Part shown: piece by piece, positions 25,786 to 60,612 of the stretch
Position numbering within the stretch: the stretch's first letter is position 1
Layout of the letters: every line of letters begins with the position of its first letter
Notes under the pieces: model-generated
Seen by the model: the letters and a program-made list of their open reading frames with translations, nothing else
Told to the model about the DNA's origin: nothing
Databases searched by the model: none
Position numbers and translations under genes: made by a program
Virus record (IMG/VR): IMGVR_UViG_3300044609_000656
Span: 1 to 64,000 of that record
Source: a virus
DNA length: 64,000 bases
Reading direction: 5' to 3' (one strand)

Positions 25786-25849
25786 TACTAGTGTTGCCTT
25801 TTTCGTTCTTCTGGCAGCATCCGTAGAAAAACTTTGTGAGACTTACTGA
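25763..25849 (+). CDS. 28-aa single-span membrane peptide before petF
   Basis: ATG 25763 to TGA 25849, the stop overlapping the petF ATG (TGATG). Residues about 5-20 form a hydrophobic helix with a short charged tail (VEKLCETY). It has the size and build of photosystem or cytochrome-complex mini-subunits, but I do not match it to a named one. The coupled stop/start is the best support. Confidence 0.45.
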
Positions 25850-26139
25850 TGACCGTTTATAGCGTTACACTTCAAACCCCTGATGGCGAAACCACTATCC
25901 AGTGTGCCGAAGACCAATACATTCTAGAAGCTGCTGAAGAGGCAGGAGTTGATCTTCCTTCATCTTGCCGTGCTGGTGCTTGCTCTGCTTGCGCTGGTAA
26001 ACTAATCAGCGGCACTGTGGATAATGAGGAGCAATCGTTCCTTGATGATGAACAACTAGCAGATGGTTGGGTGCTTACCTGTGTTGCCTATCCTACTAGT
26101 GACTGTGTTATTCTGACTGAGCAGGAAGAGAACTTGTGA
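25849..26139 (+). CDS. petF: [2Fe-2S] plant-type ferredoxin
   Basis: 96 aa, full length. The cluster ligands are Cys40, Cys45, Cys48 (CRAGACSAC) and Cys78 (TCVAYP), the plant/cyanobacterial photosynthetic type. It carries electrons from photosystem I to FNR and to ferredoxin-dependent enzymes, including bilin reductases such as the one encoded at 58319-58963. It sits between two hli genes. Confidence 0.93.
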
Positions 26140-27604: not shown

Positions 27605-28687
27605 ATGACTGCTTCAATCGCTTCACGTCAACAACAATCGAATACTTGGGAACAGTTCTGCAACTGGGTTACTTCAACCGATAACCGTCTTTATGTTGGT
27701 TGGTTCGGTGTTCTGATGATTCCCACCCTGCTTGCTGCTACAACTTGTTTCATCATCGCATTCATCGGTGCTCCTCCTGTGGACATTGATGGTATCCGTG
27801 AACCCGTTGCTGGTTCACTCATGTACGGAAACAACATCATCTCTGGTGCTGTCATTCCTTCGTCCAATGCTATTGGACTGCACTTTTATCCCATCTGGGA
27901 AGCTGCTTCCCTAGATGAGTGGCTTTACAACGGTGGTCCGTTCCAACTGGTTGTGTTCCACTTCCTGATTGGTATCTACGCCTACATGGGTCGTGAGTGG
28001 GAACTCTCTTATCGTCTGGGTATGCGTCCTTGGATCTGTGTTGCTTACAGCGCACCTGTCGCTGCTGCGAGTGCAGTGTTCCTGGTTTATCCTTTTGGTC
28101 AAGGTTCTTTCTCTGATGCGATGCCTCTGGGTATCTCTGGTACGTTCAACTATATGCTTGTGTTCCAGGCAGAGCACAACATCCTGATGCACCCCTTCCA
28201 TATGCTTGGTGTTGCTGGTGTGTTTGGTGGTTCTCTGTTCAGTGCTATGCACGGTTCTCTGGTTACTTCCTCGCTGGTTCGTGAAACTACCGAAAACGAG
28301 TCCCAGAATTATGGTTACAAGTTTGGTCAAGAAGAAGAAACTTATAACATCGTTGCTGCCCACGGTTACTTTGGTCGCCTTATCTTCCAATATGCTTCCT
28401 TTAATAACTCACGTTCGCTGCACTTCTTCCTCGCTGCATGGCCTGTAGTTGGCATCTGGTTCACTGCTCTTGGTGTTAGCACCATGGCATTCAACCTCAA
28501 CGGTTTCAACTTCAACCAGTCCATCGTTGATAGTCAAGGTCGTGTGCTCAATACTTGGGCAGATGTTCTGAACCGTGCTGGTCTGGGTATGGAAGTGATG
28601 CATGAACGTAATGCTCACAACTTCCCACTTGACCTTGCTGCTGCTGAAAGCACTCCTATTGCTCTCACCGCACCTGCAATCGGTTGA
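27605..28687 (+). CDS. psbA: Photosystem II reaction-centre protein D1
   Basis: 360 aa, complete and without an intron. Five membrane helices and all landmarks are seen: YzTyr in FLVYPFGQG, the manganese-ligand Asp in GSFSDAMP, histidines in HPFHMLG, and the C-terminal HNFPLDLA cut site with a 16-residue extension. Glu131 (equivalent to position 130) is the form linked to high-light D1. Codons are C-rich and host-like. It replaces photodamaged host D1 during infection and keeps light reactions running. Ends at a strong terminator. Confidence 0.97.
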
Positions 28688-29139: not shown

Positions 29140-30201
29140 ATGACTTCTTCAACACTTTCACAACCAATTTCACAAAGAGGATGGTTCGATGTCCTGGATG
29201 ACTGGCTTAAACGAGATCGCTTTGTATTTGTGGGTTGGTCTGGACTATTACTTTTTCCCACTGCTTATCTTGCCCTTGGTGGTTGGCTTACTGGCACGAC
29301 GTTTGTTACAAGCTGGTACACCCACGGGTTGGCGTCTAGTTATCTTGAGGGTGCTAATTTCCTTACAGCGGCTGTGTCAACGCCTGCAGATTCTATGGGT
29401 CATTCTCTTCTTCTACTTTGGGGTCCTGAGGCTCAAGGGGATATCGTCAGGTGGTTCCAACTTGGGGGACTCTGGACTTTTGTGGCACTCCACGGCGCCT
29501 TTAGTTTGATTGGATTCATGCTTCGTCAGTTTGAGATTGCTCGTCTGGTAGGTATCCGTCCATATAACGCAATCGCATTCTCTGGTCCTATTGCAGTATT
29601 TGTTTCTGTATTCTTGATGTATCCACTGGGACAATCCAGTTGGTTCTTTGCACCTTCATTTGGTGTTGCTGCAATCTTCAGGTTCCTTCTGTTCCTACAA
29701 GGTTTCCACAACTGGACCCTTAACCCCTTCCATATGATGGGAGTTGCTGGTATACTGGGAGGAGCACTGCTCTGTGCGATTCATGGAGCAACTGTAGAAA
29801 ACACACTCTATGAAGATAGTGAACAGTCGAATACTTTCAAAGCATTTGAACCAACTCAAGAGGAAGAGACGTATTCTATGGTTACTGCGAACCGATTCTG
29901 GTCTCAGATCTTCGGTATTGCTTTTAGTAATAAGCGTTGGTTGCACTTCTTTATGCTTTTTGTGCCAGTTATGGGTCTCTGGACTTCTTCTATTGGCATC
30001 ATCGGTCTTGCTCTCAATCTACGTGCATACGACTTTGTATCTCAGGAGATTAGAGCGGCAGAGGACCCAGAGTTTGAAACGTTCTATACGAAGAATATCC
30101 TCCTTAATGAGGGACTTAGAGCGTGGATGGCTCCAGTAGATCAACCCCATGAGAACTTTGTGTTCCCAGAGGAAGTTCTACCGCGAGGAAATGCTCTTTG
30201 A
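29140..30201 (+). CDS. psbD: Photosystem II reaction-centre protein D2
   Basis: 353 aa, complete. It has [20 protein letters not shown] near the start, [20 protein letters not shown] with the Tyr-D region, [10 protein letters not shown]-type and TVTANRFW segments, and the C-terminus [11 protein letters not shown] as in cyanobacterial D2. It pairs with D1 to hold the PSII cofactors. It is separated from psbA by two small genes and has its own promoter and terminator. Confidence 0.97.
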
Positions 30202-58082: not shown

Positions 58083-58322
58083 ATGAAATTTACAGTATAT
58101 TCTAAGGACGGTTGCCCATACTGCAACAAAATTGAACAACTACTTAAAGTAGCAGAACTTCAACATGTAGTATATAAACTTGGTAGAGATTTTAATCGTG
58201 AGGAATTTTATGCTGAGTTTGGTTCAGGATCAACTTTTCCTCAAGTAATTATGGATGATAAACACCTTGGTGGATGTACAGATACTGCAAGATATTTAAA
58301 AGAAAATAATATTATTAATTAA
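58083..58322 (+). CDS. grx: Glutaredoxin
   Basis: 79 aa. YSKDGCPYCNKIEQLL with Cys11 and Cys14 (CPYC), TFPQVIMDD (cis-Pro loop) and GGCTD: the complete glutaredoxin pattern. It supplies reducing power to ribonucleotide reductase or peroxiredoxin. It begins 3 nt after the virion gene and overlaps the convergent bilin reductase gene by 4 nt. Confidence 0.92.
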   Translation: MKFTVYSKDGCPYCNKIEQLLKVAELQHVVYKLGRDFNREEFYAEFGSGSTFPQVIMDDKHLGGCTDTARYLKENNIIN

Positions 58323-58963
58323 GCAAGATCAAATAAAAATTCATTGATATATTTTCTAGCAAAAGATTTATCATAATACGACTTTAAGATTCCATAAGCT
58401 GGGTCTGTATATGATAAGTGATAATCATAACCTTTTTGATAAATGTGGGATAGTTCCATCTCACATTTTTTTGTGCAATCATTATATCTGTTTAAATATA
58501 ATTCTAATTTGTCTAAGTACTCTTCATAAAAATCGTGGTCATTTGTTTTTAACCATAATTTTTTAGAAAAGTAAGTATTTAAATCGTATATTTTTGAATC
58601 TTCTTTAGTTCTATTTGGTTGATCGCCAAGATATTTTTTGATATACTTGTTCTCGTAGTCACTGTCCATTTTTAATGGATGAAAATCAATGGTGCCAAAA
58701 AACTTTTTATTGGCACATGAAACATACTCAGTGCCAAAAACTGGATTGATATATTGAAAGTCTGGATACATAACAAGAGACTCTGCGATAAATTTATCCC
58801 TTATGTTTAATTCGCAGAGTCTAATTCTTCTTAATTCATCAGTTTTCCAAACGTAAGATTTTATAATTGAGTTATTATCTTTTACTTCTTTATCTAACCA
58901 CTTGGGAAGATCTACTTCAATTAGGTTAGGATAAACTTTAAATAATATATCTCTTACATTCAT
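58319..58963 (-). CDS. Ferredoxin-dependent bilin reductase family protein
   Basis: 214 aa from ATG 58963 (GTG 58969 possible). FDBR features: PVFGTEYVS followed by FFGTIDFHPL (93-97), YFSKKLWL, YLDKLELYLNRY, the SYTDPAYGILKSYYDKSFA block with Asp187, and the C-terminal FLFD. These match PebS/PebA/PcyA-type enzymes that reduce biliverdin to phycobilins with ferredoxin. At the position of the PebS catalytic Asp105 it has Glu79; the second Asp is kept. No heme oxygenase is in the window. The product is unknown. Confidence 0.7.
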   Translation of the reverse strand: MNVRDILFKVYPNLIEVDLPKWLDKEVKDNNSIIKSYVWKTDELRRIRLCELNIRDKFIAESLVMYPDFQYINPVFGTEYVSCANKKFFGTIDFHPLKMDSDYENKYIKKYLGDQPNRTKEDSKIYDLNTYFSKKLWLKTNDHDFYEEYLDKLELYLNRYNDCTKKCEMELSHIYQKGYDYHLSYTDPAYGILKSYYDKSFARKYINEFLFDLA

Positions 58964-58992: not shown

Positions 58993-60612
58993 ATGAAAGT
59001 TCTAACCATTTTTTCTGGACATGATGCATCTGCAACTGTCATAAAGGATGGTGTAATTGAATATTACTTTAAGGAAGAGAGGTACAATAAGAAGAAACAC
59101 TCTGGTGGGCACAAATTTATTTTTGATATTATCTCAAAAAATTTTTTGCACGATATTGATTATATTATTTTTTCATCTGGAGAAAGTCAAGAGGATAAAG
59201 ATAAAAAAGATTCATTAATTAAATTATCAAATCCTAAAATTAAATTCATAAATCCAAAGTATCACCATCATTTATTTCATGCATCTGGTGCATTTTATAA
59301 TAGTGGATTTGAAAAGTCTTTAATTATATGTGTTGATTCTGCAGGTGGATATCCAATTGACCCAGAAGTTTTTGAATGTGATTCTGTATATGTTGCAGAA
59401 TATCCATGTAAATTCACTCCTCTATATAAAAGATATTGGACTGCAAACTTACAAAAAAGATTTGATAAAGTTGTAAATGGATGTAGACATATTTGTAAAC
59501 ATCATACTGATGAAATTAATATAGGAAATCTTTACAATAGTGCTGCACTTGCGATAGGACAAACAATTGATGATTGTGGTAAAGCAATGGGATTGTCTTC
59601 CTATGGAGTTGCGATAGAAAAATTAAAGTTTTTTGGTAAAAGAATATCGGCAGATGCAGCAATTAAAAAATATTTTAAGAATTATCCAGAATTATTAGAT
59701 TATATGCTGGATTTTAATGATGATGCAAACTATAAGGTTGAGATAACAAAAGATAATTATCAATTTTTTTCAAACTATTGTTACGAAGTTCAACGTCAAT
59801 GTCAAGAACAAGTTTGTAATCTGGTTAAAAAACATGTAGATAAAACTGGAATAAAAAAAGTTTGTATTACTGGTGGTTATGGTATGAATATTATTACCAA
59901 TTATGAATTGACCATTAGATTTCCTGACGTTAAATTTTATTTTGATCCTATGTGTGATGACAGTGGATTAAGCATAGGAGCTTCTATGTATTCTTATAGA
60001 CAATTGTCTGGAGACTCTAGAATACTACCATCTAAAGATACTTTTTTCCATGGTTTAACCCATGATGTATCACAATACCAAGGTGCATTTGCTGATGAAA
60101 AAGAGGTGGCAAGACTACTTTATAATAATAAGTCTGTTGCAGTATATAATCATCTTGCAGAAGCGGGTCAGAGGGCATTGGGGAACCGTTCTATACTGTT
60201 TAATGCACTAAATCCAAATGCTAAAGATATTGTTAATAAAATTAAAAATAGAGAGTGGTATCGACCATTTGCTGCTATAGTTCTTGAAGAGGACGCGCAT
60301 CTCTATTTTGACAATGTGATTCCAAATCCACACATGACAGTTTGCTTTCCTGTCAAGACAAATTTAATTCCAGGAGTTACACATGTCGATAATACTTGTA
60401 GAATACAGACAGTAAATTCTGGGCATTTACATTCTATTTTAAATGAATTTAAAAACTTGACAGGGCATGGTATCCTATTAAATACCAGTTTTAATTTGGC
60501 AGGAGAACCTTTAGTCGAAACCCCACAAGATGCATTTAGGACTTTAAATTCTTCTTCTCTCGATTATCTTTGGTTTTACGAAACGAAACAGTTGTTTAAT
60601 TTTACTTTTTGA
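58993..60612 (+). CDS. Carbamoyltransferase, two-domain, third homologue
   Basis: 539 aa. N-domain: SGHDASATVIKDG, YHHHLFHASGAFYNSGFE, CGKAMGLSSYG, ITGGYGMNIITNYE and DDSGLSIGAS. C-domain: AEAGQRALGNRSIL, REWYRPFAA, CRIQTVNSG and NTSFNLAGEPLVET. Complete but diverged from the 51881 gene, so probably a different acceptor. It is separated from the other two by the minus-strand epimerase and other genes. Confidence 0.85.
   Translation: MKVLTIFSGHDASATVIKDGVIEYYFKEERYNKKKHSGGHKFIFDIISKNFLHDIDYIIFSSGESQEDKDKKDSLIKLSNPKIKFINPKYHHHLFHASGAFYNSGFEKSLIICVDSAGGYPIDPEVFECDSVYVAEYPCKFTPLYKRYWTANLQKRFDKVVNGCRHICKHHTDEINIGNLYNSAALAIGQTIDDCGKAMGLSSYGVAIEKLKFFGKRISADAAIKKYFKNYPELLDYMLDFNDDANYKVEITKDNYQFFSNYCYEVQRQCQEQVCNLVKKHVDKTGIKKVCITGGYGMNIITNYELTIRFPDVKFYFDPMCDDSGLSIGASMYSYRQLSGDSRILPSKDTFFHGLTHDVSQYQGAFADEKEVARLLYNNKSVAVYNHLAEAGQRALGNRSILFNALNPNAKDIVNKIKNREWYRPFAAIVLEEDAHLYFDNVIPNPHMTVCFPVKTNLIPGVTHVDNTCRIQTVNSGHLHSILNEFKNLTGHGILLNTSFNLAGEPLVETPQDAFRTLNSSSLDYLWFYETKQLFNFTF

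Follow-up and report, generated by a model that had tools for sequence, protein, structure and literature searches.

The question raised by this locus is whether a viral bilin reductase that has Glu in place of the usual catalytic Asp still carries out an ordinary bilin reduction or makes a different bilin. The stretch of DNA analyzed, here called the window, is 64,000 nt and represents positions 1 to 64,000 of IMG/VR record IMGVR_UViG_3300044609_000656, a virus record of 125,801 bases. An earlier note, made from the sequence alone, had described the encoded protein as a homologue of the ferredoxin-dependent bilin reductases (FDBRs) and had proposed that the Asp to Glu change could alter the regiochemistry.

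Bilin reductase gene and protein fold

The gene is located near the end of the window.

58319..58963, minus strand: FDBR gene of the Glu-type viral clade, 214 aa (PF05996, AlphaFold2, Foldseek)

The reading frame starts with an ATG at position 58963 and its stop codon ends at 58319. An alternative GTG start two codons upstream (58969) appears less likely because relatives begin at ATG. The protein matches the Pfam profile PF05996 (Fe_bilin_red) with 96 bits against a cut-off of 31 (3.4e-27), and phrog_7278 with 7e-15. Its best sequence match in the PDB is PebA of Synechococcus WH8020 (2x9o, 2.7e-18, 25% identity). An AlphaFold2 model obtained without templates from 43 window and locus sequences has a pLDDT of 94.2 and a pTM of 0.92. 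When the model is compared with the PDB by Foldseek, 34 FDBR chains head the fold list, with PebA 2x9o first (TM 0.85), followed by PebS, PEBB and PcyA. The Pfam score above cut-off, the FDBR fold of the model and the PebA match bear out the family assignment of the earlier note.

Glutamate at the catalytic position

Four codons of the putative active site are considered.

58727..58729, minus strand: Glu79 codon (GAG), in the catalytic-Asp column of PebA, PebS, PebB, PcyA and PcyX in alignments
58403..58405, minus strand: Asp187 codon, the second (distal) Asp of the catalytic pair, kept; invariant in the clade and in PebA, PebS and PebB
58679..58681, minus strand: His95 codon, invariant in the clade; Gln in PebA, PebB and PebS, Ser (one Thr) in PcyA and PcyX
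58778..58780, minus strand: Ser62 codon, Ser or Thr in the clade; column of PebS Asn88 and PcyA His88

Alignments place Glu79, with no gap, in the column of PebA Asp84, PebS Asp105 and PcyA Asp105. The window motif NPVFGTEYVS aligns ungapped with HPLMGVDLLW of PebA and LPCFGMDLMK of PebS, and the Synechocystis PcyA motif LPLFGCDIVA shares the Glu79 column. The residue is flanked by the invariant Pro74, Gly77 and Asp93, with no gaps between them, and in the AlphaFold2 model it is within the central beta-strand (residues 75–83). Careful alignment thus gives neither an Asp at the site nor exclusion from the family, the two outcomes that the earlier note had named as counting against it; its statements that Glu is at the usual catalytic-Asp position and that the second Asp is kept both stand.

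The central Asp has been described as critical in all FDBRs, and the sole exception given in 2019 is vascular-plant HY2, which has Asn and not Glu in this column (PMC6755814). A pre-1 group of FDBRs that is without the central Asp was described in 2023 (PMC10151467). No Asp-to-Glu variants of PebA or PebS were found in the literature searched, which did not extend to older subscription papers.

Other columns also distinguish the window protein from known enzymes. The Arg of A-ring reducers such as PebB and HY2 (GtPEBB Arg215, four residues before the distal Asp) is Leu or Met183 in the clade, although the fold and distal Asp are shared with PebB and HY2. PebA also has the distal Asp and is without the PebB-type Arg, and Tyr126 of the window protein preserves an aromatic side chain at the position of PebA Phe136 (for the roles of Arg215 and Phe136, see PMC6755814). 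However, the Asp84, Asn and Gln of PebA are replaced by Glu79, Ser/Thr62 and His95. PebS (2vck) is likewise carried by cyanophages, has Met at the Arg215 column and keeps the distal Asp, but the identity is approximately 20%, and with Glu79 in place of Asp105 only the second residue of the PebS Asp105/Asp206 pair is left.

Fixation of Glu79 in a viral clade

Three scans of IMG/VR gave 58 distinct viral sequences with scores of 221 bits or more against the clade profile. The usual central Asp is absent from this clade: Glu79 is present in all 57 members that are readable at the column. His95 and Asp187 are each found in 58/58, with Ser or Thr at column 62. In the comparison groups, which were set by PDB or annotated anchors together with a sequence motif, Asp occupies the Glu79 column in 84/84 sequences (30 PebA, 36 PebB, 7 PebS, 9 PcyA and 2 PcyX). 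Both Glu codons, GAA and GAG, are used at position 79 across the clade, and pairwise dN/dS values of 0.06–0.14 show purifying selection. The clade is therefore under selection and not decaying, a chance origin of Glu79 is excluded, and the change, fixed as it is across a whole viral clade, represents a real variant.

Near-invariant positions that are specific to the clade include Phe58, Ala60, Glu61, Glu79, Phe89, Gly90 and His95. From strand pairing we infer that positions 58, 60, 62, 79, 89 and 95 share the side of Glu79. Glu79 is thus fixed throughout a deep viral clade and is accompanied by changes at Ser/Thr62, His95, Ala60, Phe58 and Phe89, an extent that the earlier note understated.

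In one copy, L012:3342-3983 (IMGVR_UViG_3300044911_002208), codon 79 is itself an in-frame stop; the near-identical relatives L007 and L014 have Glu there. This could be either a sequencing error or a broken copy.

The clade was found in viruses only. A tblastn search of the collection of isolated phages gave no match to the window protein at 1e-5, and with the distant members L168 and L209 only PebS- and PcyA-type genes appeared, at 22–32% identity among the matches listed. No clade members were detected in GTDB contigs by a pattern scan, nor in 386 cyanobacterial genomes. The best cyanobacterial score to the clade profile, 110 bits, is within the range that PebA-type proteins give, whereas members of the clade score 221 bits or more on a similar profile; the top cyanobacterial matches inspected are PebA-type.

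Phylogenetic placement

A tree was constructed from 106 FDBRs, among them PebA, PebB, PebS, PcyA and PcyX sequences. The Glu-type clade is monophyletic (100/99) and has a long stem. A 100/100 branch separates the side of PebA, PebS and PebB, which includes the Glu-type clade, from PcyA and PcyX. PebS forms its own 100/100 clade with the Glu-type sequences outside it. The grouping of the two is weak (91/73), and the tree program warns that long branches meet at this placement. Two other topologies are not rejected, one that joins the Glu-type clade to PebA (p-AU 0.117) and one that joins PebA and PebS without it (p 0.072). By its placement the window FDBR is neither PebA nor PebS, and it is phylogenetically separate from PebA. 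The Glu-type clade is a previously unnamed viral group of bilin reductases.

The virus and the gene neighborhood

Genes in the window that bear on the identity of the virus and on possible partners of the reductase are as follows.

25849..26139, plus strand: [2Fe-2S] ferredoxin, petF-type, possible electron donor (PF00111, 3.7e-24 at 25879-26097)
27605..28687, plus strand: Photo_RC protein, psbA-type, 360 aa (PF00124, 3.1e-91)
29140..30201, plus strand: Photo_RC protein, psbD-type, 353 aa (PF00124, 4.2e-75)
58083..58322, plus strand: glutaredoxin, convergent neighbor kept across the main lineage (Pfam, 5e-12; synteny)
58993..60612, plus strand: carbamoyltransferase, divergent neighbor kept across the main lineage (Pfam, 1.2e-50; synteny)

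The two Photo_RC genes and the ferredoxin gene, the latter already reported in the earlier note and confirmed by the PF00111 match, identify the virus as an uncultured cyanophage. Stretches of the record are similar to Synechococcus phages, e.g., S-SRM01 (Kyanoviridae). A heme oxygenase gene, which the earlier note had not seen in the window, was found neither there nor in the whole 125,801-base record nor in 29 related records, many of which are fragments. Likewise, no second FDBR was found in the same genome in the 19 records checked, again among related records of which many are fragments.

Across the main lineage, nearly every locus has the FDBR gene on the opposite strand between the glutaredoxin and carbamoyltransferase genes. 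In the lineage represented by L165–L169 it follows psbA on the same strand at a distance of approximately 1.3 kb and precedes speD, a setting of photosynthesis genes. These differing loci show that the Glu-type gene is carried by several phage lineages. At L168:1584-6173, psbA, the Glu-type FDBR and the S-adenosylmethionine decarboxylase gene (speD) are co-directional, with small unknown proteins encoded between them. The closest homologue of the carbamoyltransferase in an isolate is from Synechococcus phage S-SCSM2R (45%); it is annotated as a 2OG-Fe(II) oxygenase, apparently in error.

Comparison with red chlorophyll catabolite reductase

A profile of the 106 FDBRs matches red chlorophyll catabolite reductase (RCCR) with an hhalign probability of 96% (E 4.4e-9); a comparison with a profile from a shallow alignment was uninformative, and the deeper alignment gave the match. 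In the hhalign register Glu79 falls on Glu154 and Asp187 on Asp291 of Arabidopsis RCCR, with the numbering anchored on the F218V structure listed in the PDB. We take these two residues to be catalytic in RCCR. The parallel indicates that a Glu at the catalytic column is compatible with chemistry of this type. RCCR is the usual outgroup of the FDBRs (PMC10151467), and the shared Glu is therefore best read as convergence. The Arabidopsis enzyme (2zxk/3aga) is a distant homologue with Glu and Asp in the same two columns, but it belongs to another Pfam family and differs in substrate and in the organisms that carry it.

Of 146 cyanobacterial genomes sampled, six have RCC_reductase-like genes (L226–L231). 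Four of these genes have Glu in the Glu154 column and two have Ala.

Proposed function and alternative explanations

The explanation that we consider probable is that the gene encodes an active phage FDBR of the PebA/PebS side, with Glu as proton donor, that most likely reduces biliverdin at C15=C16. Biliverdin IXalpha supplied by the host heme oxygenase would be bound by the phage enzyme, which would receive single electrons from phage or host ferredoxin. In known enzymes the bilin receives a proton from the central Asp at a primary site, which PebA fills with the D-ring and PebB with the A-ring (PMC6755814). Glu79 would replace this Asp and protonate the bilin at the primary reduction site, and Asp187 together with His95 and Ser62 may tune the supply of water and protons around a side chain that is one methylene longer. 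The most likely product would be either 15,16-dihydrobiliverdin, as with PebA, which host PebB would finish, or phycoerythrobilin directly, as with PebS; these two outcomes are about equally likely. The product would feed the host antenna during infection.

Counted in favor of this explanation are the Pfam, PDB and fold matches, the side of the tree, the invariance of Glu79 and Asp187, the dN/dS values, the absence of the PebB-type Arg, the presence of Tyr126, a cyanophage that has its own ferredoxin, the psbA–speD locus and the RCCR pair. Counted against it are the finding that Asp84 is essential in PebA (PMC6755814), the 91/73 support for the sister group and the fact that a product is not safely read from phylogeny. 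An ordinary PebA- or PebS-type product is the likelier one because Glu, like Asp, is a carboxylate proton donor and RCCR has Glu in the same column.

The main alternative is the one raised in the earlier note, namely that the Glu/His/Ser site directs the reduction of biliverdin, or of another open-chain tetrapyrrole, to a different position. The result would be a bilin unlike the other phage FDBR products, e.g., a C4=C5-reduced (phycourobilin-type) bilin or a new isomer. The fixation of Asp-to-Glu with coordinated changes at 58, 60, 62, 89 and 95, the long stem branch and the RCCR-like pair are consistent with this, and PcyX and PUBS are precedents in the family (PMC13193486). On the other hand, PebA is the nearest solved relative by both sequence and fold, and Glu is a chemically conservative replacement. 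FDBR phylogeny is an unreliable predictor of product (PMC13193486), and a different bilin therefore stays a minority possibility, unlikely but of real weight. More doubtful is the fuller proposal that this virus-only deep clade, with its RCCR-like Glu/Asp pair, has a biliverdin regiochemistry new to phage FDBRs and that infected cyanobacteria gain a bilin beyond the repertoire of their own enzymes. The natural Glu-fixed clade is a ready evolutionary test case for a possible redirection of bilin reduction by a longer carboxylate.

It is improbable that the protein is a non-reducing one in which the fold is retained to bind or hold biliverdin or host bilins while turnover is lost through Glu. 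Alteration of a residue that is essential in PebA would fit such a role, as would the lack of a heme oxygenase partner gene in the 30 records, but Glu79, His95 and Asp187 are invariant across sequences of approximately 40% identity under strong purifying selection, where an acid no longer in use would be expected to differ between members. Still less credible is an RCCR-like reductase of chlorophyll catabolite or another non-biliverdin tetrapyrrole, acting on host pigments. The alignment of Glu79 and Asp187 with Glu154 and Asp291 is in keeping with it; however, at E values up to 0.1 Pfam gives only PF05996 and no match to RCC_reductase (PF06405), the RCCR structures have TM values of 0.62–0.70 compared with 0.85 for PebA, and the Glu-type clade nests inside the FDBRs, to which RCCR is the published outgroup. 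An alignment or sequencing artefact, with the true catalytic Asp elsewhere, has no observation in its favor and can be practically dismissed in view of the ungapped segment between Pro74, Gly77 and Asp93, the 57/57 Glu from many independent records and the central beta-strand position in a confident model.

Relation to other marine and phage bilin reductases

Three Ocean Gene Atlas FDBRs described in 2026 are nearest PebA but outside PebA, PebB and PebS, and may represent a functional group of their own (PMC13198022). They may belong to the same clade as the window FDBR, and the Glu-type clade may identify this unassigned marine group. It would add a lineage of phage bilin reductases beside PebS, PcyA and PcyX.

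PcyX (5owg) and PcyA also share the FDBR fold and have phage-encoded members, but they have Asp at the Glu79 column and His at column 62, where the clade has Ser or Thr, and are located across the 100/100 branch. In Pelagibacter phage Mosig (L141:2373-3609) a gene annotated as PcyA adjoins a heme oxygenase gene and represents PcyX (1.8e-138 to 5owg). A putative ferrochelatase gene is approximately 2.3 kb upstream of the Mosig heme oxygenase.
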